Assembly: GCF_963664135.1 (NCBI RefSeq)
Contig: NZ_OY760905.1
Location: 744,001 to 808,000, forward strand
Direction: 5' to 3'
Length of the DNA stretch: 64,000 nucleotides
DNA from: an uncultured Acetobacterium sp.
GTDB lineage: Bacteria; Bacillota; Clostridia; Eubacteriales; Eubacteriaceae
The notes beneath the pieces were generated by a model. The model made no database searches. It was given only the letters and a program-made list of their open reading frames with translations, and was not told the origin of the DNA. Position 1 is the stretch's first letter. Each line of letters starts with the position of its first letter. Made by a program: the position numbers and the translations under genes. Positions 9,607 through 60,569 of this stretch are shown one piece after another.

Positions 9607-10017
9607 TTATGCTGTTTTGAGTAAACCTTTTTCGCCGCACAGCTTGGACAGATCTTCTCCGACGATCCGGGTCATTTGATTGAGGTCAATGTTTTCACTA
9701 TTGAGCACATCATACCAGCCGCCAGTCACAGCATCACCGACGGTTTCTTTGAGGATCCCGCCAACCCCGTTGTAAATTTTTGTAACGGTTACGGTGGTTC
9801 CGCTTAAGGCAACCTGGATAACATATTTGTCAACCGGAGGAAACTGAATGCAATGCATGATCCCTTTTCCCACCAACTGAGGTTCCCCACAGGGATAGCT
9901 ACCCGCTTTCATAATCTCATGAAGCTCTTCATAACTCAGTTTTTGGTTGAGTTTCACCTTGTCATAACTTTTAATCATATCTTTCGATCCCTGTTTAAAT
10001 TTGTCAAAAAATCCCAT
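9607..10017 (-). CDS. Small soluble protein of unknown function
   Basis: A 136-residue protein starting MGFFDKFKQ. This ATG is preferred over one 15 bases upstream because GAGGAG lies 9 bases before it. The N-terminal amphipathic segment (FFDKFKQGSKDMIKSYDKVK) is typical of small proteins that contact a membrane or a partner. The rest is predicted alpha/beta with two cysteines (SYPCGEP, MHCIQF), and there is no signal peptide or membrane helix. I do not recognise the family. It has its own terminator and is monocistronic. Confidence 0.65.
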   Translation of the reverse strand: MGFFDKFKQGSKDMIKSYDKVKLNQKLSYEELHEIMKAGSYPCGEPQLVGKGIMHCIQFPPVDKYVIQVALSGTTVTVTKIYNGVGGILKETVGDAVTGGWYDVLNSENIDLNQMTRIVGEDLSKLCGEKGLLKTA

Positions 10018-10230
10018 TATTCTACTCCTCACTAATTGAAATGGTTAAGGTTCATTTTAAAAATGCCCTTCTATACAAAGTGTAACCCTTTCAACAGCCA
10101 TTCACAACAGCAGTTCACACCGAAAATCAGCCATTCGCGAAGTCGTTTAAGTAACACCATCGAATTATTATGATTCCTGCATCTCAACCGTAACAACCGT
10201 GCCTTTTGCCATCACTCCCTTGACATGCCC

Positions 10231-43263: not shown

Positions 43264-46212
43264 CTAAATGTCACTGACCAATTGAGCGGCTTCAATGAAA
43301 TTTTGACTGTATACTTTCTCTACTTCTTCCGGGGCTAAAGGCTTGCTGAACAAGTAGCCCTGGATATAATCGCAACCGCCATCTTTTAGCCGTAAATATT
43401 TCCCCCATACTTCAACCCCTTCGGCAGTAATTTTCAGGTTTAAACTATGAGCCAGAAAAATTAAACTGCCCATTACCTTATTGTTTTCCAAATTCAAAAA
43501 CTTATCATTAATGGACTTATCAAGCTTGACCTTATCAACCGGAATATAAGTCAAATAATGCAATGATGAATATCCGGTGCCAAAATCATCAAGCGCAATT
43601 TTGAAGCCGGCAGTTTTTAGTTCGTGAAGAAAGTCCATGGTAATCTTATTGTTTTCCAGTAAAATACTTTCAGTGATTTCAATTTCGATCAACTCTGTTT
43701 TTACTTTATTTTCATCAAGCAGATTTTCCAGATATTTGACATAATCCTTATCTTTTAGCTGCTTACTGGAATAATTGATGGCGATCTTCTTTTCTCCTAA
43801 ACCTTTATCCCGCCATCTGACAAACTGTTCAACCGCCTCTTTAGTGACCCATCGCCCGATTTTAATAATCAAACCGGTTTCTTCCGCAATTGGAATGAAT
43901 TGATCCGGACGAATGGCATGCTCCTTCAATCTTAGCAACGCTTCAAATCCATCGATCATCCCTGTTTTTAAATCCACCTGCGGTTGATAGACTAACTTAA
44001 ACCCATCATTCTTTAAAGCATTCCGTAATATTTCTTCAATCCTGACTCTACTGTCAATATCCTTTTTCATATCATTCTGATAAAAAGCATAATTGTTTTT
44101 ATCACTATGTTTAACTGAATACATGGCGGTATCAGCGTGCATAATTAATTGGTCAATGTCGACACTGTCCTCTGGAAAACAGGTAACCCCCATGCTGATG
44201 CTGATATAATTCTCCTTCCGTTCAAGCCTGAAGGATTCATCGAAAATGGCAATGACTTTTTTTGCATAAGTGTTAATTTCCTGATGATTGTTGGTGTTTT
44301 TTATCAGAATAAGAAATTCATCGCCACCCAATCGGGCCGCAAACATCTTTTTGTCGACGTTATTTTTTAATCGTTCGGCAATGATCTTTAATAATTCGTC
44401 ACCATAGACATGACCCTGGGTATCATTGATGCCCTTGAAATTGTCAATATCAAAAAGGAAAACCGCCCCGGATTTGCCGTCATCTAATTCATTCGATAAT
44501 TGATTCAGAAAGTTCAATCGATTGGGGAGTTTCGTTAAATAGTCATGGGTGGCCAGGTATTTGATATAGTCTTCCTGTTCTTTCATTTTTGTGGTGTCCA
44601 TCAAAATACCATGGAGCTGCTTCACCTCTTGATTCTCCTGCTTAATACCCCTACCCCGGATTAAAATCCATTTTTTTTCCTGTTCCCCATTCATAATTGG
44701 GATCTGAATATTGATTTCTGAGATTTCCCCTCTCTGATAAGCATCAATCACATCACTTAATTGGTTTATGGACGTCTGATCCAACAGTAAATCCATTAAG
44801 GAGAAAATATTTTCCTTTTTTTTAATTTTATGGTTAACAATTTGAGAAAAGTTCTCAGAAATCATGATCTCACTGTTTGTCAGATTTAATTCCCATACAG
44901 CACTATTGGTTGTTTCTGTTGCAATGGCATATTTCTGGTTTAGAATTTCTGACTCAACCGCATTTACTTTAATAATTTCGTATTGATTTCTCAATTCCTC
45001 TTCTTTTTCTTCAAGTTCCAGGAATGTAGTTTTAAGTTTTTCATTACTTTCACCCAAAGCCTTTTGAATAGTCCGACGTTTTAGATTATCGGCAATCAGA
45101 ATTAACGTAACTAAAGTAAGGAAGATGACAGTGATTCCAATCGATGCAAGTATACCCCAGTACTTTTCCATGGGGTTTTCTTCCTTATTAACCAATACTG
45201 AACCAACCGGAATTAAGCGTTTATCAATATTAAATTTTTCAATTAAATCATAGTCAAAAATGTAATAATAGGGAGTTTCCTCGATCACATCGATAGACTC
45301 CACTGGTTTTCCCCCTAGAATTTCCATGACCAATTCGCCGGAAATCTTTCCAAAGGCCTCATAGTCAATTAGTTTTCCGCCCATCAGACCCGCTCCGACA
45401 CCTCCAAAAGTGGCATTATAAACCGGTATCTTGGTATGTTCCTTGATAAAGGCATACTCATCCGCCATATTCATATAGGTTCCGGTTTTATCTTGAGACA
45501 TACTTAAAAAAAGTAAAATGGTGTCTTCGTTTAATGTTCCCAAAATCGTTGAAAATTCCTCAAAGGTATAATCCGATACATTCAGGAGACTGAATTGTAA
45601 ATCAGCAAAAGTTTCCTGGACTTCATTAAACTGACGTTGATCACCCTGACCAGTGAGCGAGGAATCTACAATTGCAACTACCTTCGTGGCACCAGGTTTA
45701 AAGGACTTCGCTACGTTGATGGTTTCGACTAGCGAAAATTTTTCGAGGATGCCGGTAACAAGAGGATCTTCCGCCGCTTTCCGGCCACTTTCCCAATTAT
45801 TGATGCCAAAAAATACAATTGGCGTTTGTGGAAACAGTTCATCTTTGTGTTCCATTATAAATTGCAGGGCATTGTCATCCCCTACAATGACAGCATCATA
45901 GGCGGGTAAATTTTTTAATTTAAATTTAATCAATTCATAAAACAATTGTTTATTTTCTGCTGTATCCAATCGCTTTGTGTCCATGTATTCAATATCAAGC
46001 ATGACCTTGTCCCCAAGTACACTTTGAAGCCCTCTAATTTGATCGGGAACAGTGGCATAACTTTCATTGTAGGAACTAATAAACAAGATTTTTTTACTCT
46101 CATCCTTTGCTTGTATCTTCCAAGTCTGAACAAAAAATATAAAGAGGATAAATATGAATCCAGCCAATATCGATAAGAACTGACTTTTTTTTATTTTTCG
46201 CTTAACTCGCAT
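43264..46212 (-). CDS. Membrane GGDEF-EAL protein with extracytoplasmic binding-protein-like sensor
   Basis: A 982-residue protein. A signal anchor (13-30) is followed by an ABC-type substrate-binding-like domain (about 38-330: KILFISSYNESYATVPDQIR, YDAVIVGDDNALQF, PIVFFGINN). Then come a transmembrane helix (about 353-375), a coiled coil, a PAS region (425-550), a GGDEF domain with intact RLGGDEF, and an EAL domain with EALLRL, EITESILLEN, DDFGTGYSS and EGVEVWG. Both c-di-GMP synthesis and hydrolysis look possible. The ATG at 46212 follows AAGGAGA by 8 bases; a TTG just before it is less likely. The ligand is unknown. Confidence 0.92.
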   Translation of the reverse strand: MRVKRKIKKSQFLSILAGFIFILFIFFVQTWKIQAKDESKKILFISSYNESYATVPDQIRGLQSVLGDKVMLDIEYMDTKRLDTAENKQLFYELIKFKLKNLPAYDAVIVGDDNALQFIMEHKDELFPQTPIVFFGINNWESGRKAAEDPLVTGILEKFSLVETINVAKSFKPGATKVVAIVDSSLTGQGDQRQFNEVQETFADLQFSLLNVSDYTFEEFSTILGTLNEDTILLFLSMSQDKTGTYMNMADEYAFIKEHTKIPVYNATFGGVGAGLMGGKLIDYEAFGKISGELVMEILGGKPVESIDVIEETPYYYIFDYDLIEKFNIDKRLIPVGSVLVNKEENPMEKYWGILASIGITVIFLTLVTLILIADNLKRRTIQKALGESNEKLKTTFLELEEKEEELRNQYEIIKVNAVESEILNQKYAIATETTNSAVWELNLTNSEIMISENFSQIVNHKIKKKENIFSLMDLLLDQTSINQLSDVIDAYQRGEISEINIQIPIMNGEQEKKWILIRGRGIKQENQEVKQLHGILMDTTKMKEQEDYIKYLATHDYLTKLPNRLNFLNQLSNELDDGKSGAVFLFDIDNFKGINDTQGHVYGDELLKIIAERLKNNVDKKMFAARLGGDEFLILIKNTNNHQEINTYAKKVIAIFDESFRLERKENYISISMGVTCFPEDSVDIDQLIMHADTAMYSVKHSDKNNYAFYQNDMKKDIDSRVRIEEILRNALKNDGFKLVYQPQVDLKTGMIDGFEALLRLKEHAIRPDQFIPIAEETGLIIKIGRWVTKEAVEQFVRWRDKGLGEKKIAINYSSKQLKDKDYVKYLENLLDENKVKTELIEIEITESILLENNKITMDFLHELKTAGFKIALDDFGTGYSSLHYLTYIPVDKVKLDKSINDKFLNLENNKVMGSLIFLAHSLNLKITAEGVEVWGKYLRLKDGGCDYIQGYLFSKPLAPEEVEKVYSQNFIEAAQLVSDI

Positions 46213-46525
46213 CAATCATTCTCCTTGCCGGAATCCCGGTTATCAGTGCTTCGATAAAACTGGAAATAAATATTTTTGATGTTTTATAATATACCTTTTT
46301 TTATTTGTCTTAAACAATTAAGCTGTCACTTTATTACTATCGATGCCCTCTTTAAATTCTTGCTCAAATAAAAAAGAAATCCGGCGCTCAATCTGATTCA
46401 ACTCATGTTCCGGGAACATTCAGTAGTTAAGGATTAGCATGGCCGAACGCAAAAAAATCCAGCTAAAATTGCTCTTAGCTGAACTTTTGGTGATCATTCG
46501 ATTTTTTAATTCAGTGGTTGAAAAA
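46213..46525. other. Intergenic region with a possible short ORF
   Basis: It holds a possible 33-codon minus-strand ORF (46318-46419) and a weak minus-strand -10-like box near 46288-46293 for the GGDEF-EAL gene. No terminator for the MFS gene was seen. Confidence 0.4.
46318..46419 (-). CDS. Possible small ORF or gene fragment, unknown
   Basis: A 33-codon frame starting MFPEHELNQIERR and ending SNKVTA. The composition is coding-like, with an amphipathic helix, but there is no good ribosome binding site and a stop precedes the ATG directly. It could be the tail of a deleted gene. Confidence 0.2.
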   Translation of the reverse strand: MFPEHELNQIERRISFLFEQEFKEGIDSNKVTA

Positions 46526-47942: not shown

Positions 47943-50231
47943 TTATCTTCGCTTTAATTCAAACTGATTAATCATTTCTTTCAGCATTTCTGCCTGACTT
48001 GATAATTCTTCACTGGCGGCGGCACTCTGTTCAGCGGTAGCAGAATTCTGCTGAACAACCTGAGCGACCTGCTCAATGCCGGTGTTGATCTGGGCGATAC
48101 CAGTGGCCTGTTCATTGGATGCCACCGCAATATTCCCGACTAAATCGGTGACTTCGCCTATCCCTCCGACGATTTCATCCAGCGCCGCAGCAGTATCATC
48201 CGCAATTTTTGTCCCATGTTGCACCTTATTGATGGAACCTTCAATTAAAACAGTTGTTTCTTTAGCGGCTTCGGCGCTCCTGGCGGCCAGAGTTCGCACT
48301 TCCTCGGCAACGACGGCAAAACCCTTGCCATGCTGACCAGCTCTGGCGGCTTCAACAGCAGCATTTAACGCCAAAATATTCGTTTGGAAAGCAATGTCAT
48401 CAATAACCTTGATAATCTTGGAAATATCCTGGGATGACTGATTAATTTCAACCATGGCACCCTGCATTTCCGTCATCTGTGCATTTCCTTTGGCAGCATT
48501 CTCCCGGACATCCATGGCCAGTTCTTTGGCCTTGTTGGCGTTCATAGCGTTTGCTTTGGTTTGATCGGCAACCTCGGTAATCGATGCGGTCAGTTCCTGG
48601 ATCGAGCTGGCTTGTTCCGTGGAGCCCTGAGCCAACGATTGGCTGCCCATTGAAACCTGCGCTGAACCAGCGGTTACCTGTTGGGCCGCATCGCTGATAT
48701 CGCCGAGCAATTTATTCAATGAAGTTATAATGCCGTTTAAGTCATTGGATATTTTATGGAAATCTCCGCCATAGTCTCTAACCTGTTCTAGATTAAGATT
48801 TCCTTTTTCAATTTCTCCGGTAACAACGGACATTTCCTGAACAACATTCTCAATCCGGACAGCAGTGTAGTTGACGGACTTAACCAGTTCATCAAATTCA
48901 CCTTTATAGGTGCCGGATACTTCCACATGTAAAAAGCCTTTGGCCATTTCAACCATTACTTTGGCCACTTCTCGGGTTGGCTTGGCAATTTCATCAAGAA
49001 TGTTATTCATCCCACCAACCAGATCTTCCCAGGCGCCCTTAAATTTACCGGCATCTGCTCTGGTATCCAATTCTCCATCAATGGCGGCCTTAGTTAGCAT
49101 GGTGGCATCATTAATCAGATTACCAATTGATTTTTTCACCGCTGCTAAATTATCGCCGATTTCACTGAATTGACGATAGACCTCCCTAGTATATTCCCCG
49201 GCTGGAGCAATATTTGTATCAAGATCCAGGTCGCCTTCAGCTAAACGTAATAAGTTCTCTTCTAATCGTTTTATTTCGGTATTGGAGTATTCATTCACAC
49301 TGATAATCGATGTTAGATCCGTTACAATTTCAACATAGCCAACCTTCTCGCCTTTTTTATTGATCAAATAAGCGGTATCCTGTTTATTATTTCTGCCGAC
49401 CCATTCAAAATAACTGTCGGTCAAACCCTGATCAACCAGTCGTCTGATTCCACATCCTTCGGTATTACAGATGTCGGCATTGGCACTGCTGCATGGCATG
49501 CCACAGGCGGCATCTCGATTATTGATAACGCCGTTAGCAATCATTAGATCAGAAAATGGCTTGTTTAAGAAGGTCCAGTTCATATCATTATCAATAACAT
49601 GAACCGGAAACGGAATGGCATCCAGAATTGCTTCATACCATTGCATTTTATCAACAACAATATCCATCACCTGATTGGTATTTAAAACAGCTTTTTGGTA
49701 TGCTCCGACAAGATCAGTCGCTGGATCCCGCTTTGAAAATTCACCGCTTTCGGCCCACTCCACCAGCATTGCAGTATCACCGGCAAAGCGGTTAATGGAA
49801 TCCCTGATTGTCATTAGACTCGTTCCCAAGATATCCTTTTCCGATCCGGTAATGATGTCAACGGTCATATCCCCTTCAGCCAGTTTCTTTACTTCTGCCG
49901 TATGCGTCCTGATATTTTCGGCAATCTCGGCAAAGGCTTCACTGAGCTCTCCCAATTGATCCTGGGAATGATCAGCTGCAATCACGGTATCGAGATTACC
50001 CTTTGCCAACCGACTGGCCGCCAGGGTCAGCTCTGACAGTTTATTTGAAATCCCTTTTACCGACAAAATAAATACGCCCAGCATCGCAACAAAACCAATT
50101 CCAAAAATCAATGCACTATTGCTCTGGTTTCCCATTGATACAACCAGTCCGGCAACAATTAAAAAGATTACACCAATTGGCAATCCCACCGACAATACCA
50201 ACTTTGACAATAAACTCTTTTTTTGATTCAT
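47943..50231 (-). CDS. Methyl-accepting chemotaxis protein with Cys-rich PAS, without extracellular domain
   Basis: A 762-residue receptor. Two close membrane helices (about 11-31 and 37-57) leave almost no external loop. A HAMP series (60-200), a PAS domain (about 205-320) with C-X7-C-X4-C (CSSANADICNTEGC), further HAMP repeats, and the signalling domain ending near residue 758 with [18 protein letters not shown] follow. It is a paralogue of the receptor at 11515-14700, sharing PAS and signalling parts, but lacks the dCache domain, so it must sense inside the cell, probably through the PAS. GGAGGGG precedes the ATG. Confidence 0.92.
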   Translation of the reverse strand: MNQKKSLLSKLVLSVGLPIGVIFLIVAGLVVSMGNQSNSALIFGIGFVAMLGVFILSVKGISNKLSELTLAASRLAKGNLDTVIAADHSQDQLGELSEAFAEIAENIRTHTAEVKKLAEGDMTVDIITGSEKDILGTSLMTIRDSINRFAGDTAMLVEWAESGEFSKRDPATDLVGAYQKAVLNTNQVMDIVVDKMQWYEAILDAIPFPVHVIDNDMNWTFLNKPFSDLMIANGVINNRDAACGMPCSSANADICNTEGCGIRRLVDQGLTDSYFEWVGRNNKQDTAYLINKKGEKVGYVEIVTDLTSIISVNEYSNTEIKRLEENLLRLAEGDLDLDTNIAPAGEYTREVYRQFSEIGDNLAAVKKSIGNLINDATMLTKAAIDGELDTRADAGKFKGAWEDLVGGMNNILDEIAKPTREVAKVMVEMAKGFLHVEVSGTYKGEFDELVKSVNYTAVRIENVVQEMSVVTGEIEKGNLNLEQVRDYGGDFHKISNDLNGIITSLNKLLGDISDAAQQVTAGSAQVSMGSQSLAQGSTEQASSIQELTASITEVADQTKANAMNANKAKELAMDVRENAAKGNAQMTEMQGAMVEINQSSQDISKIIKVIDDIAFQTNILALNAAVEAARAGQHGKGFAVVAEEVRTLAARSAEAAKETTVLIEGSINKVQHGTKIADDTAAALDEIVGGIGEVTDLVGNIAVASNEQATGIAQINTGIEQVAQVVQQNSATAEQSAAASEELSSQAEMLKEMINQFELKRR

Positions 50232-50670
50232 TTTTCCCCTCCATGATGCTTTATTCAGTCTTTTATCTTCCTACATAACACACTCAAAACCAAAAATAAT
50301 CGCCGATAATACAACTCATCACCACGATCGATTCTAATTCTCAGGAATCTCATCGTCATTCAAAACAGAAGCAATTTTTTGTTTTTGAAAGTCCATCGCA
50401 AATAGCAATATTTTACCCATTCAGCAATTGATTACATTCATTATAATTTATATGAATAAATTAAACGACTACATTTATTATAACCTCATTTTTCAGAATA
50501 TTCCAATTTTTTTTACTGTTTTTTTTATCCTACTGATATTTTTTTGTGCATTTTGTATCGTTTCCACCGTATCATGAATTCTTATCTCTCGAGAGAATGA
50601 TTATGCTAAAAAAAGAACCCATCCGATCTACCACAACGTGGTTTAACGGATAGGTCCGATCTGGTGCTTT
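50232..50670. other. Intergenic region
   Basis: 439 A/T-rich bases. They hold the terminator of the redox operon (50608-50655), a 12-bp palindrome TCTCTCGAGAGA near 50585-50598, and presumably the promoter of the chemoreceptor, which I could not assign. No gene is supported. Confidence 0.5.
50608..50655 (-). terminator. Terminator of the redox operon
   Basis: On the minus strand CCTATCCG pairs with CGGATGGG around an inner ACCAC-GTT-GTGGT hairpin, then TTCTTTTTTT. Confidence 0.85.
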
Positions 50671-52125
50671 TTACTCAGCTAAAGCTTCTTTAATATAAGT
50701 TACGGCATTTTTTCCTGCCATTCGGCCGGAGTTTACCGCAAAGCCAAGGGTATTACCTGGCAGTACAAAGACGTAATCTGGATTGCAAACCGAATTGGCA
50801 TCGGTTCCGGCAGCGTAAAGACCAGGTATCGCATTAATGTTATTATCCACTACTTCAGTCATGTCATTGATGCGGATGCCGCCCAGGCTGCCATATGCGC
50901 TGGGGGCAAATTTCAGAGCATAGAATTTATTGCCATCAAGTGGGGTCATGTATTTCAGTTCTTTATTGAAATCCGCATCGCCAGTCTGACACATGGCGTT
51001 GTATTGAGTAATACCGGCAATCAGTCCGTCTTTGTCAATACCAGTTTTTTCAGCCAGTTCTTCCAGTGAATCCGCTACATAGAAAACATCACTGCCATTT
51101 TTCAGATGCTCTTCCATTTCCTGTTTGAAGTCATTCATGTCCATGGAAGAAGTAACGACGTTGATCAGATCGAAGCCGTTTTCTTCGTATTTCTTCATGA
51201 TTTTGTCGTCAACGATGGAGAAAGCTATCCGGTTTTTTTGACGAGAGATGGCATTCACTGAAAACACTGGGTTTTCGACCACGGCTTCGTTGTAGAAACG
51301 CTGGCCGTCGAGATTCACAAAGACGTTGGGCTGACGAAAGGGCAGTTCTATGGGGGCGTAGCCACCGGTATTGGGGGCAAAGAAAACCAGTTCCATATCC
51401 ATATAATCTTTGCCGGCACCGGCATCCCAAGCCATCTGAATCCCATCGCCAGTTAGACCGGGAATCCGATAGGAGTAAAGATCTTTGCCCCATTCATACG
51501 GTGTGTATTTTTCAATAAATTCCGGACTGTCCCCAAATCCGCCGGTGGTGATAATCACCGCCCCACCGAAGATTTCCAGGTCCCCTTCTTTATCTTTGGC
51601 TGCCACGCCGATGATTTCGCCGTCTTCTTTAATCAACTCTTTAACCGGTGTTTCCAGCATAATCTTAACCCCCAGTTCTTCAGCCCGTTCAGTCATGGCT
51701 TTGATCATGGTTGCCGCTGCTCGCAGACCCGGTTTGCCGGATTTTGGCTGAACAATGTGCCAGGTTGCTTCAGAGCCCGGGAAATATTTGGATGGCAGGG
51801 CAAACTCCACGCCCATGTCCTGAAGCCATTCAATGGTCCCTGCCGATTGATCGATGTATTTTTTTACCAGTTTGGCATCAGAACGCCAATGCGTGTAATC
51901 CATAAATTTTTCATAAGCCTGTTCCCGGGTAATTCCAATTAATCGCTCTTTCTGCAGTTTGGTTTCAACCCCCAACAAACCCATGGCCATGTTGGCACAG
52001 CCCCCGGTAGTGTTGGCTTTTTCCAGAATCGTTACCTCAGCACCGTTTTCGGCTGCAGTAATAGCCGCTGCCAAACCGGCAGCACCGCCGCCGACCACAA
52101 TTACATCTGTTTCAAATTCTCTCAT
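50671..52125 (-). CDS. FAD-dependent fumarate-reductase-like flavoprotein
   Basis: A 484-residue member of the FAD_binding_2 (fumarate reductase/succinate dehydrogenase flavoprotein) family. The dinucleotide fold VIVVGGGAAGLAAAITAAE is at 9-27 and TGGCANMAMG follows as in the family. The C-terminal GLYAAGTDANSVCN and NTLGFAVNSGRMAGKNA complete the FAD site. There is no Tat or Sec signal, heme or FMN domain, so it is cytoplasmic. Relatives reduce activated C=C bonds (fumarate, urocanate, acrylates) or oxidise the reverse. It is last in a three-gene operon whose other products look like an electron-delivery chain from NAD(P)H, so a reductase role is likely. The acceptor is unknown. Confidence 0.85.
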   Translation of the reverse strand: MREFETDVIVVGGGAAGLAAAITAAENGAEVTILEKANTTGGCANMAMGLLGVETKLQKERLIGITREQAYEKFMDYTHWRSDAKLVKKYIDQSAGTIEWLQDMGVEFALPSKYFPGSEATWHIVQPKSGKPGLRAAATMIKAMTERAEELGVKIMLETPVKELIKEDGEIIGVAAKDKEGDLEIFGGAVIITTGGFGDSPEFIEKYTPYEWGKDLYSYRIPGLTGDGIQMAWDAGAGKDYMDMELVFFAPNTGGYAPIELPFRQPNVFVNLDGQRFYNEAVVENPVFSVNAISRQKNRIAFSIVDDKIMKKYEENGFDLINVVTSSMDMNDFKQEMEEHLKNGSDVFYVADSLEELAEKTGIDKDGLIAGITQYNAMCQTGDADFNKELKYMTPLDGNKFYALKFAPSAYGSLGGIRINDMTEVVDNNINAIPGLYAAGTDANSVCNPDYVFVLPGNTLGFAVNSGRMAGKNAVTYIKEALAE

Positions 52126-52156
52126 TTTGTTTTCTCCTTCAACTTTATTATTTTAA

Positions 52157-52846
52157 TTATTGTTCGCTTTTTCGTCGTCGCTTCCGGGACATCAGCCCGC
52201 CGCTTTCTGCATCTGCCTGGAAGCTGCCCACTGGAACTGGTTCCTCCGGGAGTTTAGGCAAAACTGCTCCGGCCCGCAAAATTGCTTTATCACTACAGAC
52301 AGCTTCACAATCACCGCAGTGATTACAACGGGAGACATCAATCACATGGATGAGTCCCTCACCCCCAGCGACGGCATTGACGGGACAGACGTCCAAACAT
52401 TTGCCACAGCCGGTACACGTTTCCGGCGATACGTAAAAACTCACCAGCTTGTTGCAGACCAGCCCATCGCAGCGTTTTCGTTTGATGTGTTTGGTAAAGT
52501 CATCTTCGTATTCAGCAATATTCTGTCTGATAATCTTACCCACTTCTTTGCCATAGTCACAGCTGGATCCGATAATCAGATCATCAGAGATGTCCTGAAT
52601 AATTTCCACATCCTGTTCCCGGCCCAGTCCCTGGGTGATGCCAGCGGTAACCACCGCCAGTTGCAGCAGTCCTTCCCGACAGATCACACATTCCCCACAG
52701 CTGTTGCGTCGGACTGTGTCCGAGAACTGTTTCAGTTGATCCACCGGACAGCGCGTGCGGTTAACTGCTTGGTGTATTGATTCCACATAGTTGCCGATTT
52801 CGTCTGGCGAAGCTTTTCTCCACTGTTTGCGTATTTTATTTTCCAT
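52157..52846 (-). CDS. Iron-sulfur protein: NuoF-type cluster domain plus two [4Fe-4S] ferredoxin motifs
   Basis: A 229-residue protein. Residues 1-100 match the C-terminal iron-sulfur part of NuoF/HydB (RRNSCGECVICREG, later SSCDYGKE for the fourth cysteine). The FMN- and NADH-binding parts of NuoF are absent. Residues about 135-195 hold two ferredoxin motifs (CTGCGKCLDVCPVNAV and CNHCGDCEAVCSDKAI). A basic tail (RKRRRK) ends it. It should pass electrons but cannot itself oxidise NADH. It lies between the NAD(P)H-linked subunit and the flavoprotein in one operon, so it is probably the wire between them. Confidence 0.85.
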   Translation of the reverse strand: MENKIRKQWRKASPDEIGNYVESIHQAVNRTRCPVDQLKQFSDTVRRNSCGECVICREGLLQLAVVTAGITQGLGREQDVEIIQDISDDLIIGSSCDYGKEVGKIIRQNIAEYEDDFTKHIKRKRCDGLVCNKLVSFYVSPETCTGCGKCLDVCPVNAVAGGEGLIHVIDVSRCNHCGDCEAVCSDKAILRAGAVLPKLPEEPVPVGSFQADAESGGLMSRKRRRKSEQ

Positions 52847-52858
52847 CTTAACCCCTTC

Positions 52859-54973
52859 CTATTTAATCCCATAATTGGCCCAGAATTTGGGTTTGGTGAT
52901 GGCAACCCGCAGGTCACACTGGAAACAACGTTCGGCTTCCTTACAGGCACGATCGACACTAAAACAATCGGTGACTGCCGCAAATCCGTTGATCCGCATT
53001 TCGGGATTTTCCTGAGCAGGCTGCTCCCGTTTCTTATCCAGGAAAGTTTCGTCCCGGCCCAGCCAGGCTTCTGAAGCTTCTTCCGCCGCCAGTACATCCT
53101 CAATTTTTCCGTCACCGCCTAATGCCAAGTCAATGGCCACCGCCGCTTTCCGCCCCGAAGCAATAGCCCGGATAACCGAATGAGTACCATAAGATACATC
53201 GCCGGCAAGGAAAACACTACTATCCTTCACTTTGACCTCCTCAACTGACTCAATCAGATTGCCGCCAATTATCGGCAGATTCCAGCCGGCCGGTATTTCC
53301 GGACGCTGGCCGGCGGCAAAGATGATCGTATCAGCAGAAATTATATGTTCCGAATCTGGCACCAGCTTTAATTGCATCTTCCGGTTTTTATCAAAATTAA
53401 ATGATTCCACTTTGCGGCAGTTTACCCCGGTGGCATGATTATCATTATTTTCGATGGCGTAAAAAGAAGTGTCGTTGATAATCTGAATACCTTCTGCCAA
53501 CCCTTCTTCAATTTCGTCCAGACTGGCTGTCATCCCTTCCCGACTTTCCAGACAGACAATCGTCACCCCCGTTGCCCCCAACCGCCGAGCAGTTCGGGCA
53601 CAGTCAAAGGCCACGTTTCCGCCACCCAGAACCACAACATTTCCTGTCAATGTGGGGTGAATCGCCATGGCGGCATTTCTTAAAAACGCGATGTTTTCCA
53701 ACACATTGCCACAATCGGCGCCATCAATCGGCAGCCGTGTTCCCTGTCCGGCTCCAGTAGCAATCAGAATTTCATCGTAGCCTAATTCGCTTATTGCTTC
53801 CAGATCAATTATTTCCGTATCGGTCAGAATTTTTACGCCGCTATCGGTGATCACCTGAATTTCAGCCTGAACCGCTTTCCGGGGCAGCCGATAGGCCGGA
53901 ATCCCGGTGGTCAGCATGCCGCCGGCAACCGGCAGTTTTTCAAATACCGTTACCTCATGGCCAGATTTTTTCAGATAGTAAGCAGCAGTCAGTCCCGCCG
54001 GACCACTACCAATGATCGCCACTTTTTTTCCACTGGCCGGTTTGATCAGAACCTTGTCTTTCCAAAGCCCCTGATCCTGGGCGGCGGCAAATTTTTTCAG
54101 TTCTCGAACCGACAGCGCTTCATTAATCTCTTTGCGCCGGCATTCGTCTTCGCAGAAGGCCATACACACATACCCCAATGAGTGGGGAAAAGGTGCCCGC
54201 TCGCGGATTACGGCAATGGCTTCCTGGTAGTTTCCTTCTTTAATAAGCCGGATGTATTTGGGCACATTGATCTGTCCCGGACAGGCTGACCGACAGGGCA
54301 AAAGACCGATTTCCCGGTTTAGATCAGCCGCGAAAACCCCTTCTTTATCTTGAAGTGCCCCAGTCGGACAAACTTCGACACAGGTACCACAGAACCGGCA
54401 GTTTTCTTCATTCATCTGATGATGCTGGCGAACATCCACCATGATCCGGTCATCCTCCATCACTTCATAATCCAGTACATCTACGCCCCGCAAATCCCGG
54501 CAAGCCCGGACGCAGCGGCCACAAGACACACAGCGGTTTAAATCCCGGACAAACAAGGGATTTGATGTATTCACCGGCACCGCATTGAGGGTTCGCTTCA
54601 GCCGAGCCGTACTCACTCCCAGATACTGAATCAGCGACTGGAGCTCGCATTTTAAATATTTGGGACAGGTGGTGCAATCATCCACGTGATTAGCCAACAT
54701 CAGTTCCATCGACAGACGCCGCATTTTGTTCAGCGTTTCTGTTTTGGTATAGATGACCATATTCGCTTCTACTACAGTGGAACAAGCCGCTTTAACCCCC
54801 TCGATCCCTTCAATTTCCACCACACACAACCCACAGGCGCTGATGTCCGGCAGATCCGGATGGTGGCATAAATGTGGGATGTACAGGTCCGCCTTCAAGG
54901 CAGCTTTTAAAATGCTATCCTCTGAATCAACCGCCAGCACATGCCCATCAATGGTTATCGTTACCGTTTTCAA
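52859..54973 (-). CDS. NuoG/GltD-like iron-sulfur NAD(P)H oxidoreductase subunit
   Basis: A protein of about 704 residues. Order: a [2Fe-2S] domain (HLCHHPDLPDISACGLC), a His-Cys3 site (HVDDCTTCPKYLKC), two [4Fe-4S] motifs (CVSCGRCVRACRD and CRFCGTCVEVCPTG), a GltD-type helical domain (CRSACPGQINVPKYI), an FAD fold (GSGPAGLTAAYYL) and an NAD(P)H fold (VLGGGNVAFDCARTA). It should oxidise NAD(P)H and send electrons along the clusters. Start: TTG 54973 has GGGAG 8 bases upstream and fits the usual start of the domain (KTVTITIDG). ATG 54988 and GTG 55021 are in frame but lack such a site. It is first in the MerR-controlled operon. Confidence 0.85.
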   Translation of the reverse strand: MKTVTITIDGHVLAVDSEDSILKAALKADLYIPHLCHHPDLPDISACGLCVVEIEGIEGVKAACSTVVEANMVIYTKTETLNKMRRLSMELMLANHVDDCTTCPKYLKCELQSLIQYLGVSTARLKRTLNAVPVNTSNPLFVRDLNRCVSCGRCVRACRDLRGVDVLDYEVMEDDRIMVDVRQHHQMNEENCRFCGTCVEVCPTGALQDKEGVFAADLNREIGLLPCRSACPGQINVPKYIRLIKEGNYQEAIAVIRERAPFPHSLGYVCMAFCEDECRRKEINEALSVRELKKFAAAQDQGLWKDKVLIKPASGKKVAIIGSGPAGLTAAYYLKKSGHEVTVFEKLPVAGGMLTTGIPAYRLPRKAVQAEIQVITDSGVKILTDTEIIDLEAISELGYDEILIATGAGQGTRLPIDGADCGNVLENIAFLRNAAMAIHPTLTGNVVVLGGGNVAFDCARTARRLGATGVTIVCLESREGMTASLDEIEEGLAEGIQIINDTSFYAIENNDNHATGVNCRKVESFNFDKNRKMQLKLVPDSEHIISADTIIFAAGQRPEIPAGWNLPIIGGNLIESVEEVKVKDSSVFLAGDVSYGTHSVIRAIASGRKAAVAIDLALGGDGKIEDVLAAEEASEAWLGRDETFLDKKREQPAQENPEMRINGFAAVTDCFSVDRACKEAERCFQCDLRVAITKPKFWANYGIK

Positions 54974-55022
54974 TTCACACACTCCCATACATTTTTCATA
55001 AGATAAATAACAGTTCAACACC

Positions 55023-55052
55023 TTGACTGTTAAATATCAATCAATTTATAAT
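55023..55052 (+). promoter_or_regulatory. Promoter of the MerR gene
   Basis: TTGACT at 55023-55028, an 18-bp spacer and TATAAT at 55047-55052, directed at the MerR gene. The dyad at 55065-55081 lies at its start region, which would permit autorepression. Confidence 0.7.
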
Positions 55053-55055
55053 GTG

Positions 55056-55086
55056 ACTATAAGGTTTGCCCTAGGGGCAAAGTCAA
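55056..55086 (-). promoter_or_regulatory. MerR-type promoter (19-bp spacer) of the redox operon
   Basis: On the minus strand TTGACT (55086-55081), then a 19-bp spacer with the dyad TTTGCCC-CTA-GGGCAAA, then TATAGT (55061-55056). It drives the redox operon and sits between it and the divergent MerR gene. Confidence 0.88.
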
Positions 55087-55095
55087 GAGGAAAGC

Positions 55096-55923
55096 GTGAA
55101 AAAAATGAAAAAATTATATTCCATCGGTGAAGTGTCTCGAATTCTCAGTATTCCCTCCAAGGCGCTGCGTAATTACGACCAGCTGAATCTGATGAAACCG
55201 GAGCATGTGGATGAAGAGACCAAGTACCGCTATTATAGCTACGATCAGTTCTTCACCATCGATGTCATCCGCTATCTGAATAAGGTGCTTTTTGTTCCAC
55301 TGGAAGATATTAGAGAACTGATGGGTGAAAAAAAAGACCACCAGCAGCTTTTGAAACTGCTGGAAGCCCATAAAAATTCCCTAGATCAGAAAATCACCGA
55401 ACTGGAATATTCCAAGCGGGTTACTGAAGGATTGATTACCGATATTAAATATCGGGATAATAATGAAGAAGAAATAGAAATCCATGAAGCGTACCTGCTG
55501 ACCCGAAATCTCTATTACAACGAGCTGGATGTTTCCATTTATGACCTGGATAAGCATGTCAGCCGGATCGCTATTGACACCGGCCACATTGACAACCGGG
55601 AAAGCAATGTGATGTGCACGATTTATTCCATTGCCGATTATGAAACCAATCAGGCTCTGAATGTTAAAGGCTTTGGGATTTTTTCTGACAAAAAAATACC
55701 GGGATTAAAGTCGAAACTTATCCCGGAAGGGCGCTATCTGACCCAGCGCTTTCTGTATTCGGAAGAAAACTGCCTGGCTACCCTGAGAAACCTGATCCGT
55801 TATAGTCATACCCATGACCTTAAACTGGATGATACGGTTTATCTTATTTCTAAAATGGTCAATGTTTCTGCCGCTACCAAATACGATTATTATATGGATC
55901 TGCAAATTATGCGAAAATTCTAA
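55096..55923 (+). CDS. MerR-family regulator of the redox operon
   Basis: A 275-residue protein. Residues 6-75 form the MerR winged helix (YSIGEVSRILSIPSKALRNY, then TKYRYYSYDQF). A coiled coil spans about 85-118, and a C-terminal effector domain covers 125-275. The start is a GTG at 55096 with GAGG 5 bases upstream; the ATG three codons later is too far from it. It is divergent from the redox operon, whose promoter has the 19-bp spacer and dyad expected for a MerR target. The effector may be the operon's substrate, an inference. Confidence 0.9.
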   Translation: MKKMKKLYSIGEVSRILSIPSKALRNYDQLNLMKPEHVDEETKYRYYSYDQFFTIDVIRYLNKVLFVPLEDIRELMGEKKDHQQLLKLLEAHKNSLDQKITELEYSKRVTEGLITDIKYRDNNEEEIEIHEAYLLTRNLYYNELDVSIYDLDKHVSRIAIDTGHIDNRESNVMCTIYSIADYETNQALNVKGFGIFSDKKIPGLKSKLIPEGRYLTQRFLYSEENCLATLRNLIRYSHTHDLKLDDTVYLISKMVNVSAATKYDYYMDLQIMRKF

Positions 55924-55968: not shown

Positions 55969-56814
55969 TTAATCCAAACATGATTTTTGTGAGAAACCAT
56001 TAAATAAATGCGCATAGATTTTAAAATCCACTTCTAAAAAGACATTAAAAATAATGCGATCAAATTGATCCTCATGTGTCTTGAGAAAATTCATCACCGT
56101 TCCCACTGCAATTTCAGCAGCCCGTTGATTGGGAAAGTGAAACACCCCGGTCGATATGCAGCAAAATGCCAGAGTGCGGATCTGATTTTCGACCGCAATT
56201 TCGAGACAGGAGCGGTAACAGTTGGCCAGATCCTGTTCCAGTTCCGGCGATAAACCTTCCTGAACGATCGGCCCGACTGTGTGAATCACATACTTGCTTG
56301 GCAGATTATAGGCACTGGTTATTTTTGCTTTTCCGGTTGGTTCTGGAAAGTTCTGTGCTGTCATTAAAGCAAAACAGGTTTCCCGTAACTGAATGCCGGC
56401 CGCGCTATGGATCACGTTGTCGATGCAATTATGGCCGGGGACAAAGCAGCCCAGCAGCTGACTGTTGGCGGCATTGACAATTGCATCCACTGCCAGCCGG
56501 GTGATATCGCCTTGCCAGAGGGACAGTTTGTCACCGAAACAAATCTCCCCCACGCCGCTATTTTTTAAGCCTTCATTCACCGTTGCTATTTGTGAAACCG
56601 TTACGATCCCCTTTTCCCGGACTTCTTTTTGGAGCAGTCGGTCCTGCATCACTAAAAACTCCGAATCGATGGGCCCCGGTTCTCGGACATTCATTAATCC
56701 CCGCAATAGCCGTCGTTTCTCATCTCGATCGGCAGGAATGGTCAGCTTCCGGTACTGCTCATTTTCACTTGATAATGTATTAATTAAATCGTCCAGTGTT
56801 TCTCGTTCTTTCAT
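55969..56814 (-). CDS. Zinc-macrodomain protein (ADP-ribose hydrolase, SirTM-linked type)
   Basis: A 281-residue protein. Residues 1-95 are a helical extension; residues about 96-275 form a macrodomain (WQGDITRLAVDAIVNAANS, YVIHTVGP, CCISTGVFHFPNQRAAEIA). The segment GCFVPGHNCIDN with Cys-His-Cys is the zinc site that marks the Zn-macro class. Members remove ADP-ribose that a class M sirtuin attaches to lipoyl carrier proteins. A class M sirtuin gene lies 3.4 kb away at 59383, separated by flavin enzyme genes, so the two probably work together. No lipoyl carrier is visible. Confidence 0.9.
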   Translation of the reverse strand: MKERETLDDLINTLSSENEQYRKLTIPADRDEKRRLLRGLMNVREPGPIDSEFLVMQDRLLQKEVREKGIVTVSQIATVNEGLKNSGVGEICFGDKLSLWQGDITRLAVDAIVNAANSQLLGCFVPGHNCIDNVIHSAAGIQLRETCFALMTAQNFPEPTGKAKITSAYNLPSKYVIHTVGPIVQEGLSPELEQDLANCYRSCLEIAVENQIRTLAFCCISTGVFHFPNQRAAEIAVGTVMNFLKTHEDQFDRIIFNVFLEVDFKIYAHLFNGFSQKSCLD

Positions 56815-57025: not shown

Positions 57026-57517
57026 TTATTCAAAGTGAACACGGGTTGCATCAAAACGGTCTTGCTGTTTTGCATCCGCTACCGGGTAGCCAATCGGAAT
57101 GATGGCATAGGGTTGGAGATGATCAGGAACATTCAGAGCTTTGCGGACATTTTCCATCCGGTCTGCCAACGGCGCAATGCCAATCCAGACTGCTCCCAGT
57201 CCGAGTTCGGTAACTTCCAGCAGAATATTCTGGGTAGCGGCAGCCATATCGATGTCGGCAAAATCCGGCATCATCATTTCCTTGCGATAAACTGGCACAA
57301 TCGCCATGGCAGCATCCTTAATGCATCCGCCATAAGGGCTACAGTCGGCTAGGGCGGCCAGGGTTTCTTTGTTTTTAACTACAAAGAACTCCCAGGGCTG
57401 CTGATTGGCAGCTGATGGTGCAGCCATAGCAGCTTTTAATAACAACTCGATTTTTTCCGCTTCCACTTCTTTGTTTTCATACTTTCTCACACTGGTTCGA
57501 TTAAATATTACGCTCAT
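57026..57517 (-). CDS. Nitroreductase-family flavoprotein
   Basis: A 163-residue protein with nitroreductase features: NRTSVRKYENKEVEAEKIE with the FMN-binding Arg segment, AAPSAANQQPWEFFVV, DMAAATQNILLEVTELGLGA and IPIGYPVAD. These enzymes bind FMN as dimers and reduce nitro groups, quinones or flavins with NAD(P)H. The ATG at 57517 has GGAGG 5 bases upstream. It follows the flavin reductase gene by 35 bases in one operon and faces the macrodomain gene's start. Confidence 0.9.
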   Translation of the reverse strand: MSVIFNRTSVRKYENKEVEAEKIELLLKAAMAAPSAANQQPWEFFVVKNKETLAALADCSPYGGCIKDAAMAIVPVYRKEMMMPDFADIDMAAATQNILLEVTELGLGAVWIGIAPLADRMENVRKALNVPDHLQPYAIIPIGYPVADAKQQDRFDATRVHFE

Positions 57518-57552
57518 TTTTTCCTCCATATATTTTTTATTTTTACACATCA

Positions 57553-58062
57553 CTACTTTTTTAGAATCTCAATAATTTCGCCGATATAAAGGTCATGATA
57601 ATCTTTATCGGCATACCATAACTCATCGATGGACCCATCAATAAAGTTTCCCGGATCAATCGGCTGTCGACAGAGTTTTCGGCACAGCATCACGGTTTCG
57701 GCTTCCTTGAAATAGGGGATCCCCTCCTGATGTGCAACCGTCAGTCCCGATGCTTTAATTTTATCCTCATCCCGGCCGGATACGGTCCCCATATAGTTGA
57801 GTATTTTCTGGTGTTCCTTATGGTCAAAGAATGTCAGTGAAAAATGATCGGATCCATCCACAAATTCCTTAGTGAACCGACTTTTACGGATCACGATATA
57901 AGCCACGTTTTTGTTCCACAAAACGCCCATACCACCCCATGATGCTGTCATACTATTGATTTTTCCATCTTTTTCGGCGGTAATCAGCATCCATTCTTTT
58001 CCAATTAAACGAAACGGGCTGACATCAAAGTTATCTGCCTTAATTGTTTTAAAACTACTCAT
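57553..58062 (-). CDS. Flavin reductase-like FMN-binding protein
   Basis: A 169-residue split-barrel protein of the flavin reductase-like/DIM6-NTAB type: MLITAEKDGKINSMTASWGG, YIVIRKSRFTKEFV and FSLTFFDHKEHQKILNYMG. It probably binds FMN and reduces it or transfers electrons. AAAGGAG precedes the ATG. It is first in a two-gene operon with the nitroreductase and divergent from an HxlR regulator, the usual arrangement for HxlR-controlled redox enzymes. Confidence 0.85.
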   Translation of the reverse strand: MSSFKTIKADNFDVSPFRLIGKEWMLITAEKDGKINSMTASWGGMGVLWNKNVAYIVIRKSRFTKEFVDGSDHFSLTFFDHKEHQKILNYMGTVSGRDEDKIKASGLTVAHQEGIPYFKEAETVMLCRKLCRQPIDPGNFIDGSIDELWYADKDYHDLYIGEIIEILKK

Positions 58063-58168
58063 TCAAATTCTCCTTTATGGTGCTTTGGCAATCTCCTTGC
58101 TTCTCTTTTCATTCCATGCTATTATTTTATCAGTGATTTTCAATAAAACAAGTATGCACTTATTAGTC

Positions 58169-58194
58169 ACTTACTACCCAAAAAGATAGTAAGT
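58169..58194. promoter_or_regulatory. Candidate HxlR operator
   Basis: ACTTACTA (58169-58176) and TAGTAAGT (58187-58194) form a perfect inverted repeat with a 10-bp centre, between the divergent flavin reductase and HxlR genes. Confidence 0.7.
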
Positions 58195-58222
58195 ATCCAT
58201 TAAAATATAAAAGGAGTTCTAA

Positions 58223-58576
58223 ATGACCGAAAAAAAACATTTCTGCTGCCCAATTGATGCCACCATCAGCCTAATTGGTGGAAAATATAAAACCAAAATT
58301 CTCTGGCACCTGGTTGACAAGACCCTGCGCTTTAATGAACTGCAAAAAATTGTCCAGCACGCCACCCCTAAAATGCTCACTCAGCAGTTGCGGGAGTTGG
58401 AGCGGGATGGACTGGTTACCCGGACCGTCTATCCGGTGGTGCCGCCTAAAACCGAATATGCCCTGACCAGTTTCGGTCGGAGCCTTTATCCGATTCTGGA
58501 TTCGATGTGTGAATGGGGCAAAGATTATATGGCTGACGACGCCACCGACGACCTGGCTAAGGCTGTCAATCAGTAA
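58223..58576 (+). CDS. HxlR-family regulator
   Basis: A 117-residue winged-helix protein of the HxlR family: CCPIDATISLIGGKYKTKIL at the N-terminus, LRFNELQKIVQHATPKMLTQ, LRELERDGLVTRTVY and the wing. The adjacent cysteines near the N-terminus are typical of redox- or quinone-responsive members. It is divergent from the flavin reductase/nitroreductase operon across a dyad at 58169-58194. It is 45 bases from the flavodoxin-ferredoxin gene and may be co-transcribed with it. Confidence 0.9.
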   Translation: MTEKKHFCCPIDATISLIGGKYKTKILWHLVDKTLRFNELQKIVQHATPKMLTQQLRELERDGLVTRTVYPVVPPKTEYALTSFGRSLYPILDSMCEWGKDYMADDATDDLAKAVNQ

Positions 58577-58621
58577 TCAAAACATAATACTAGACGATGT
58601 AAAGAAGAAGAAGGAGTACCA

Positions 58622-59386
58622 ATGATATTTTATTTTTCAGCAACAGGAAATAGTCAACACGTCGCCACCCGGATCGCAGCAGCGACGCATGATGAAATCT
58701 TTTCGATGACCGATGGTTTGAAAAACGACTTGTCCCAGTTTCAAATCAAACCGGACGAAGCCGTTGGCATTGTTGCACCGACCTATTTTATTGGACTGCC
58801 AATTCTGGTTCGAGATTTTCTGGCCAGTCTTGAACTGATCACAAAGAAAAAGCCCTATACCTATTTTGTGTCCACTTATGGCACCACCTGCGGAAATACT
58901 GGAGCCGTAGTCAATGATATCATGGCTAAAAAAGGCTTTCCCCTGGATGCCCGTTATAGCATCAAGATGCCAGACACCTGGACCCCGATCTTTGATTTAA
59001 CCGATCAGGCCAAAATGCAAAAAATCAACAATAAAGCCGATTTACTAATTGATACAGTAATTGATCAGATCAAGCGCAAAGCAAACGGCGACATGATGAA
59101 GCGTAAAACCCCGGGCTTTCTGGCGCGGCGGTATTACAAATCCTATGACAAACAACGAACGACCAACCATTTTCATGTGGAAGATAGCTGTGTGGGCTGC
59201 AGTCTCTGTGCTGAGCACTGTCCGGTCGACGCCATTACGATGGAAAATGGGAAACCGGTCTGGATCAAAGAGCAATGTGTAATGTGCCTGGGCTGTCTCC
59301 ACCGCTGTCCCGTGTTTTCAATTCAGTATGGCCAGAACACCCAAAAACATGGTCAATATCGCCATCCTAATGTAAGTAGGATTTAA
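58622..59386 (+). CDS. EFR1-type flavodoxin-ferredoxin fusion
   Basis: A 254-residue protein. Residues 1-160 form a flavodoxin-like domain (MIFYFSATGNSQHVATRIAA, VAPTYFIGLPILVRDFL). Residues about 185-240 carry two [4Fe-4S] motifs (CVGCSLCAEHCPVDAI and CVMCLGCLHRCPVFSI). Such EFR1 proteins pass electrons from ferredoxin to flavin enzymes. AAGGAG lies before the ATG. Its stop overlaps that of the convergent sirtuin gene by four bases. It probably supplies electrons to the nearby flavin enzymes. Confidence 0.9.
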   Translation: MIFYFSATGNSQHVATRIAAATHDEIFSMTDGLKNDLSQFQIKPDEAVGIVAPTYFIGLPILVRDFLASLELITKKKPYTYFVSTYGTTCGNTGAVVNDIMAKKGFPLDARYSIKMPDTWTPIFDLTDQAKMQKINNKADLLIDTVIDQIKRKANGDMMKRKTPGFLARRYYKSYDKQRTTNHFHVEDSCVGCSLCAEHCPVDAITMENGKPVWIKEQCVMCLGCLHRCPVFSIQYGQNTQKHGQYRHPNVSRI

Positions 59387-60222
59387 AGTAGCGCCTTTAC
59401 CACTGTACCGATTGCTTCGTCAAACGAAATGGTTCGCCCGTCGTTTTCGGTTGGCCCCAAGGGGTAGTCACGGTTAAAGCGGATTAAGGTTGCCTGGTGA
59501 TTTTCATAGGTCATATTTTCAAAGGGATAGCGGATGATGCCGGGGGTGTTAAACCCCACTCCGAATTCCAGCAGCGTTATCTTTTTCCCCTGGCTGACTT
59601 CTAAAAATTCTTTGTATCGTTTATCGGCGGCATACCAGGCCGAATCCTGAACAAAATACTGATTATGACGGAGATTCACATCCATGCTACCACCACAAAC
59701 CGGACATTTGGGCACCATCGCAACGGGAATTTTGCAATCAACCGTCGCTGCCAGCATCTTTTTAATCATTTCGGCATTATCATACAAGGTATCGTGACAG
59801 GCTTTGGCACACTGCATAAAGGCATAATCACCCTGGACTTCAAAGACCTTCTCAGCCGGAAATCCGGCTTTGACAAACTGGCTTTCGACATTGGTAGATA
59901 AGACAAAGTATTCTTTCTGCCTGACCAATTCAAAGATCTCCTGATACAGTGATGTAGCCGGCATGGCGTAGCGATTAACGTCAATGTGTCTGGCCCAATG
60001 CGCCCAGGATTCCGCTTCGGTTTCAAAGGGATAGAATGATCCGGAGTACATGTCCGTGATCCCGTACTTCTCGATAAAATCGGCAAAGTTATCGGTAAAC
60101 CGTTTCCCGCCATAATCCAAACCAGCGGCTGCCGAAAGTCCGGCACCACCACCAATTAGAATAACTTCACTTTTTTTTATGGCTTCTCTGGCCGCATTGA
60201 TGCGCTGCTCTAAATTGTTCAT
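59383..60222 (-). CDS. Class M sirtuin (SirTM), protein ADP-ribosyltransferase
   Basis: A 279-residue sirtuin: GGGAGLSAAAGLDYGGKRF at the NAD site, STNVESQF where deacetylases have NIDxLH, and EVQGDYAFMQC where they have the catalytic HG. Gln in place of His marks SirTM, which ADP-ribosylates rather than deacetylates. Zinc cysteines are in QCAKAC and PKCPVCGG. In streptococci and staphylococci SirTM modifies lipoylated GcvH-L, and a macrodomain protein reverses it. Such a macrodomain gene lies at 55969. ATG 60222 has GAGG 8 bases upstream; an earlier in-frame start would add a basic tail. Confidence 0.9.
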   Translation of the reverse strand: MNNLEQRINAAREAIKKSEVILIGGGAGLSAAAGLDYGGKRFTDNFADFIEKYGITDMYSGSFYPFETEAESWAHWARHIDVNRYAMPATSLYQEIFELVRQKEYFVLSTNVESQFVKAGFPAEKVFEVQGDYAFMQCAKACHDTLYDNAEMIKKMLAATVDCKIPVAMVPKCPVCGGSMDVNLRHNQYFVQDSAWYAADKRYKEFLEVSQGKKITLLEFGVGFNTPGIIRYPFENMTYENHQATLIRFNRDYPLGPTENDGRTISFDEAIGTVVKALL

Positions 60223-60569
60223 TTCTAATCCTCTTAAATTTCTATTGATCATTTTCTTTTTTTTATTCCCAGATGGTTTTTTAGCCAATGGGACAACAGG
60301 TCATACAAGGGCTGCACTTTTCAACGCTGTGGTGTCAATTATCACTATTCAGATGAAGAGTTCAATCATATTGTGATATGGTTTATTCTAACACAAACAA
60401 AGGAACCATATGATGTCAAAATTGTGTGTAAAATAATATTGTTCTCCGGCCTGCAGATTTTTGTAAAAAAAAGCATCCGTTGTTTACTCTGACAACAGAT
60501 GCTTAATAATTATTTAAGACTTGTAAAAAATCATCCCAGAATCGCTTTTTTAAAATTACTCATCATCAA
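60223..60569. other. Intergenic region
   Basis: It contains the terminator at 60463-60504 and the unassigned promoter region of the sirtuin gene. No gene is supported. Confidence 0.5.
60463..60504 (-). terminator. Terminator of the XRE-cupin gene
   Basis: On the minus strand AAGCATCTGTTGT pairs with ACAACGGATGCTT, followed by eight T. Confidence 0.9.

Follow-up and report, generated by a model that had tools for sequence, protein, structure and literature searches.

The enzymes with which strict anaerobes reduce plant-phenol double bonds, and the source of the electrons that these enzymes use, are only partly known; to our knowledge, the ene-reductases described for such compounds in these organisms are mostly single flavin enzymes that use reduced nicotinamide adenine dinucleotide or its phosphate (NADH and NADPH, together NAD(P)H). 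Here we analyse a 64,000-nucleotide stretch (the window), positions 744,001-808,000 of the one-contig, 4.08-Mb genome of an uncultured Acetobacterium sp., in which three consecutive genes, termed A, B and C, lie divergent from a MerR-family regulator gene. Their products may form a soluble, non-bifurcating NADH:ene-reductase complex for an aromatic alkene, probably a phenolic one of the kind reduced by the vinyl phenol reductase VprA, induced through a BmrR-like sensor, and we favour this reading with moderate confidence. It would amount to a conserved complex separating nucleotide oxidation, electron wire and reductase, with natural fusions, a dedicated sensor in the window's clade and relatives in C-glycoside and phloroglucinol gene clusters, and it offers an example of a NuoF/HydB-type subunit that has lost its NADH/flavin mononucleotide (FMN) motif and kept its clusters.

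Several described systems come close. StnABC, the electron-bifurcating transhydrogenase of Sporomusa ovata, resembles the locus in its fusion of NuoG and GltD as nucleotide unit, its NuoF-type partner and its chain of iron-sulfur (Fe-S) clusters (PMC10482914, PMC7483475). In the sections of PMC10482914 drawn on here, K170 of StnC ligates a cluster at a position occupied by Glu in NfnB, R239 is likewise numbered, the flavin adenine dinucleotide (FAD) of StnC does not bifurcate, and the ferredoxin-like domain of HydB/StnB is the proposed ferredoxin site. The electron-bifurcating hydrogenase HydABC shares a HydB-type part with the locus, the flavocytochrome c fumarate reductases and urocanate reductases share the FAD_binding_2 fold of C, and VprA (NF053717; PMC10295242, seen in part) is the best curated family for C. 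Two candidates from Acetobacterium were set aside: caffeyl-CoA reductase (CarCDE) is built of different parts, and the isoprene reductase of A. wieringae consists of one oxidoreductase with Hyp chaperones and ferredoxin, not of A-B-C, in the part of that report consulted (PMC10134865). A description of the trio was not found among the titles and abstract beginnings searched, with most subscription papers outside that search, and the flavonoid-enzyme list in one section of PMC11170127 names no such module; this agrees with a first-pass annotation of the sequence, which knew of no described complex of this composition. The assembly is nevertheless a variant of the Stn/Hyd modular kind and not wholly new.

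All three genes lie on the minus strand in the order A-B-C, with intergenic gaps of 12 and 31 bp that contain ribosome-binding-like sequences. Gene A (52859..54973) encodes 704 residues from a TTG start and joins the N-terminal part of NuoG, with [2Fe-2S] and [4Fe-4S] sites, to a GltD/StnC-like FAD/NAD(P)H domain; Pfam detects Fer2_4, NADH-G_4Fe-4S_3, Fer4, Fer4_20 and Pyr_redox_2. The mechanically called open reading frame (ORF), from GTG at 55021, would give 720 residues and is probably too long at its start, since GGGAG precedes the TTG at 54973 by 8 nt and the relatives in L027 and L028 begin at the same place. Gene B (52157..52846, 229 aa) is the C-terminal piece of a NuoF/HydB/StnB-type protein, with an N3-type cluster site and two [4Fe-4S] sites; NADH_4Fe-4S (PF10589) scores 57.6 bits against a cut-off of 23.5, the same scan detects ferredoxin-type Fer4 domains, and the FMN/NADH domain Complex1_51K was not found in it by Pfam. 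Gene C (50671..52125, 484 aa) encodes a VprA-like FAD_binding_2 flavoprotein whose FAD motif begins at residue 7, leaving no room for a signal peptide. A terminator-like stem-loop lies 3' of C (50608..50657, minus strand; 11-bp outer stem, then a T run), with a z-score of -3.78 and an equally good fold in none of 200 shuffles; it is missing from the consensus terminator scan because its loop exceeds the length that the scan allows. The first-pass annotation had read the region as one operon beside a MerR gene, made up of a NuoG/GltD-like NAD(P)H unit, a NuoF fragment that kept its cluster and lost its FMN/NADH domain, and a flavoprotein devoid of a signal peptide, and each of these statements is supported.

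The arrangement recurs elsewhere. Besides the window, two Acetobacterium records (L027 and L028) and two genomes from other families (L052 and L053) contain the complete MerR-A-B-C set, so that it is more than a chance grouping; in one further Acetobacterium record (L026), MerR, A and B are present and the contig ends within B. At E ≤ 1e-150 the A profile matched 7 of 391 genomes of the class, 4 of 398 of the phylum (the window genome being one) and 24 of 299 in the family of G294, these three sets being samples, as well as one of seven in the order of G233 and 8 of 67 in the window's order. Among 18 genomes of the genus the distribution is patchy: three (the window's, G003 and G005) carry the type I set of MerR, A, short B and C, and two (G010, G013) carry a relative with a longer B. 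Comparisons below use 39 loci, namely those around A matches in the genus, class, phylum and G294-family searches plus L027 and L028; excluded were L026 (contig end), L113 (same species), same-place duplicates (L059, L112, L114, L115 and others) and a truncated match in G1031. Counts for A use 38 loci, the A of L097 being matched by the profile and lost to an overlap filter.

A B homologue is present in 34 of the 39 loci and a C homologue in 30, with the genes adjacent in most; the B of L106 may be cut by a contig end, and the C of L032 is incomplete, lying where a contig starts. Four loci (L097, L098, L100 and L101, the last confirmed by Pfam) encode B and C as one fused protein of 922-982 aa, and fused partners usually touch when they are separate proteins, which supports a shared complex. 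Distances in the A and C trees are correlated (r = 0.64 over 28 loci), a value reached in none of 5000 label shuffles, which ignore shared ancestry, and the type I module forms one clade (5 rows) in both trees, which were built by a quick method, with a support of 100 in the Shimodaira-Hasegawa-like approximate likelihood ratio test (SH-aLRT). Conserved co-occurrence, put forward at first pass as a check on the three-component idea, is borne out by homologue counts, fusions and trees; the set is real and conserved, and A, B and C probably form one complex.

In A, the electron input, 23 Fe-S ligand positions were inspected, and 37 of 38 loci retain every one of them; the exception is the fragmentary A of L030, in which the first eight are missing. 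Its Lys309 and Arg378 align with residues 170 and 239 of the StnC encoded by a separate Stn-type gene set (L036) in the window genome, and the lysine is present in all 38 loci. The two proteins differ in build: StnC has about 1170 aa, with GltD inserted in NuoG and an FdhF-like C-terminus, whereas in A the GltD part follows the NuoG N-terminal part and no FdhF-like remnant is seen. They also differ after the second glycine-rich motif, where StnC reads YRR and A reads C(L/M/I)E in 37 of 38 loci (CLE in the window). An acidic residue at this Rossmann position is the usual sign of NADH use, as a rule of thumb for a preference judged from one residue, and the acid (E492) of the window A where the NADPH-using StnC has Arg suggests that NADH is the nucleotide. 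In L030 (G010; 7936..10072) gene A is broken into two open pieces, and its relative in G013 (L031) is unbroken.

B can be aligned to the final ~165 residues of HydB (8a6t_B, E = 1.4e-33), whereas HydA, HydC and the FMN domain of HydABC have no counterpart at the locus, nor does StnA. In an alignment of 40 sequences (34 module B proteins, four NuoF/HydB/StnB references from the window genome, one duplicate and the true HydB L107_1), the NuoF NADH/FMN motif NADEG(D/E)PG is present in the four references and the true HydB and kept in none of the 34 module proteins, so B looks like a wire. The B proteins lacking it range from 524 to 191 aa across relatives, and in the 505-aa class of G010 and G013 Pfam still detects Complex1_51K. 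At the CxxCxxC site the third Cys is absent from nine B rows and the second from two; the window B keeps all. B proteins as short as 191-230 aa are present in loci beyond the window clade as well (L086, L106 and L107, of which L106 may be truncated), so the N-terminal part of NuoF may have been lost more than once.

The output of the chain, unlike that of StnABC, is a flavoprotein. VprA, an enzyme that converts vinylphenols into ethylphenols, is the best curated family for the window C at 322 bits, about 110 bits ahead of the next, flavocytochrome c, and below the family cut-off of 600; it also leads for the C proteins of L030, L033 and L053 (314, 333 and 338 bits), so that all four C proteins scanned stay under 600, and a true VprA on a Lactiplantibacillus plasmid scores 784. 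Identity is 40-48% between the window C and its relatives and 31% to VprA. H79, W122-H123 and Y451 are common to C and the true VprA and may be catalytic; H79, W122 and Y451 were not seen in the flavocytochrome c fumarate reductase FccA. C and VprA also share R276, E280 and N285, of which R276 and E280 say little because FccA has counterparts. In L105, three tandem copies of gene C precede one A and one B.

Gene neighbourhoods of the relatives point to plant polyphenols. We counted as markers PF18089 (phloretin-hydrolase family), PF19906 (C-glycoside deglycosidase), a gene like that of the flavone reductase FLR (7D38; PMC7862272, seen in part) and BKACE or cyclase families within 9 kb of A, and at least one such flavonoid, C-glycoside or phloroglucinol gene accompanies 19 of the 39 loci. 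Random placement would put 0.27 of the 31 PF18089 match rows and 0.31 of the 51 PF19906 rows within that distance, where 5 and 8 are observed; the control assumes uniform placement in genomes picked for carrying A and ignores the clustering of catabolic genes. The FLR-like gene, near 10 of 39 loci (E = 4.7e-23 to FLR for one member searched), encodes a different enzyme outside the complex, and clustering did not find it at the window locus. L103 and L104 hold cupin, SDR, cyclase, BKACE and 3-hydroxyacyl-CoA-dehydrogenase-type genes, L103 also with thiolase and CoA transferase labels by similarity, a content resembling the phloroglucinol pathway in the part of PMC10470551 consulted. Neighbour labels are similarity clusters with single members checked by family search, and the roles AraC, Thl, AtoD, AtoA, Buk and DgpA-like Gfo/Idh were assigned by similarity or by visual inspection. 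The module of G010 and G013 lies between a URO-D family gene, for whose product no NCBIfam family was named at 1e-20, and a corrinoid protein gene; this is a context found in O-demethylase systems, and it again indicates aromatic compounds.

In the window, a sensor for such a compound may be encoded next door. The regulator gene (55096..55920, plus strand, 275 aa) is divergent from A-B-C, and its product aligns with BmrR over residues 7-271 (E = 7.5e-27), nearly its full length and including the GyrI-like C-terminus; Pfam GyrI-like alone stays below cut-off in three of three C-terminal parts of regulators (E 0.013-0.08). Facing gene A is a promoter (55056..55086, minus strand) with a -35 box TTGACT (55086-55081), a 19-bp spacer and a -10 box TATAGT (55061-55056), and a dyad, TTTGCCC-CTA-GGGCAAA (55065-55081), lies between the boxes, as in MerR-activated promoters with their spacers of 19-20 bp. 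The -35 box starts at the upper end of the interval given in the first-pass annotation, whose reading of the genes as one operon linked to a MerR gene is supported. The spacer length is constant in all six type I loci (window, L026, L027, L028, L052, L053) and so is the presence of the dyad, altered in L052 with matched changes on both arms and imperfect in L053. A whole-genome search at up to three mismatches found no site but this one; the window itself holds one perfect copy of the dyad and one copy with two mismatches (0.65 expected at up to two). For the MerR gene, a promoter-like site (55023..55052, plus strand; TTGACT, 18 bp, TATAAT) is a consensus match only, at 11 of 12 positions, and the 14 such sites of the region are no excess over the 11.0 in shuffles.

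Taken as one machine, A-B-C would work as a linear chain, neither known bifurcating flavin site looking competent. NADH would reduce the FAD in the GltD part of A; single electrons would then pass through the Fe-S clusters of A to the N3-type cluster and ferredoxin-like domain of B, and from there to the FAD of C, which would reduce, in the cytosol, a C=C bond of an aromatic alkene that is probably phenolic and of the VprA type. The BmrR-like protein would bind a lipophilic or aromatic ligand and induce the operon from the 19-bp-spacer promoter. The sequences themselves show the gene set, its domains and cluster ligands, the lost NuoF motif, the B-C fusions of relatives, the operator, the kinship of C with VprA and the polyphenol genes near relatives; from these we infer the complex in this organism, the use of NADH, the direction of flow, the substrate class and the inducer.

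A number of observations weigh against this scheme. The sub-threshold VprA scores of C have been given; in addition, L105, L106 and L107 have C proteins without W122, and the closest solved structures to C are flavocytochromes c. On L111, a LysR gene and neither A nor B accompanies the VprA gene, so that C might not need them. No polyphenol marker accompanies the five type I loci among the 39 or those of G010 and G013, and the window genome gives no PF18089 or PF19906 match; for the window clade, the aromatic substrate is thus carried over from three sources: VprA, relatives whose C is 40-48% identical, and the BmrR-like sensor. The long B proteins of L030 and L031 keep the glycine-rich FMN loop and not the NADEG motif, the nucleotide preference of A follows a one-residue rule of thumb, and the predicted structures of the regulator and C are too poor for use (predicted local distance difference test, pLDDT, 51 and 29).

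An unlikely alternative, and still the most tenable one, keeps the reaction and changes its role: the operon would detoxify a lipophilic xenobiotic, serving protection instead of electron disposal or catabolism. Regulators of the BmrR type are known for multidrug sensing, and nitroreductase and flavin reductase genes lie close to the operon. Against a protective role stand the many module relatives in catabolic clusters; moreover, clustering placed the BmrR-like gene in the five type I loci alone, and elsewhere a PucR-type gene is close by in eight (a cluster label, confirmed by Pfam in one).

It is less probable still that the same complex disposes of electrons in the cytosol by reducing an unsaturated organic acid, the proposal of the first-pass annotation, which had fumarate, urocanate, acrylate and cinnamate-type acids in mind. 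That C is a fumarate-reductase-like flavoprotein holds for its fold, shared with flavocytochrome c and urocanate reductase among the closest solved structures, and for its kinship with C=C reductases. It does not hold for the active site: H365, R402, H504 and R544 of FccA, the residues with which it binds and protonates dicarboxylates, have no match at the aligned positions of C (alignments by eye). The lead of VprA over flavocytochrome c and the polyphenol neighbours also argue against such an acid, so that the acceptor is the least supported part of the earlier interpretation and a non-aromatic unsaturated acid is less likely. Acetobacterium does use phenylacrylates as electron acceptors, and a hydroxycinnamate would satisfy both this proposal and the phenolic one.

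A and B could also be a general NAD(P)H electron supplier to which C and other reductases are merely adjacent, an idea we regard as distinctly doubtful. No C homologue was seen near A in 9 of the 39 loci, where A-B may serve other partners, and A-type proteins of 820-826 aa, longer than the window A, lie near Bzd-type benzoyl-CoA reductase genes in L056-L058 (bzdN, bzdO and bzdQ in L056, bzdO in L058, curated cut-offs passed), so that A can feed other reductases; both facts also count against a dedicated A-B-C complex. No B or C was seen in these Bzd clusters, and the L056 protein has the NADPH-type YRR. The B-C fusions in four loci, the adjacency in most loci and the correlated trees speak against a general supplier. 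That the complex bifurcates, with exergonic C=C reduction driving ferredoxin reduction through the ferredoxin-like domain of B, has a precedent in the ferredoxin-coupled caffeyl-CoA reductase of Acetobacterium and a candidate site in that very domain (the ferredoxin site proposed for HydB/StnB, PMC10482914, seen in part), and is very improbable given that 34 of 34 B proteins have lost the NADEG motif belonging to the NuoF-type flavin site that bifurcates, that no NuoE/StnA-type domain was found among the window neighbours scanned, and that the GltD part of A bears the Lys ligand of StnC. As a long shot, the module might represent a new class of ene-reductases, cytosolic and built of several subunits, that serve phenol catabolism in anaerobes, a bifurcating Hyd/Stn core stripped to a wire that serves diversifying VprA-like flavoproteins; in its boldest form, with ferredoxin reduced through B, acceptor reduction would yield energy.

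Around the operon, a chemoreceptor gene (47943..50231; MCP signalling and two HAMP-type domains, with a Cys-rich stretch CGMPC...C...CGI mid-protein) lies between gene C and an MFS gene, an order kept in L027 and not in L028. The MFS protein has only 24-31% identity to MFS proteins of the relatives' loci, too weak for a transporter role to be assigned. On the other side, at 57026..59386, the nitroreductase and flavin-reductase genes are divergent from genes for an HxlR regulator and an EFR1 ferredoxin-flavodoxin protein, a block kept in L026 and L027; a 95-nt tRNA-Val prediction by ARAGORN (59317..59411) overlaps both the adjacent ORF and the last part of the EFR1 gene and is possibly spurious. 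A macrodomain protein-ADP-ribose hydrolase, above its NCBIfam cut-off, and a sirtuin-like protein are encoded near one another (55969..56814 and 59383..60288), the sirtuin likeness being judged by eye with no Pfam match at 0.001. Comparison with PHROGs gave nothing useful. Further off, at 43264..46215, a 983-aa protein combines an ABC-substrate-binding-like part with GGDEF and EAL domains, and a relative stands at the same place in L027.

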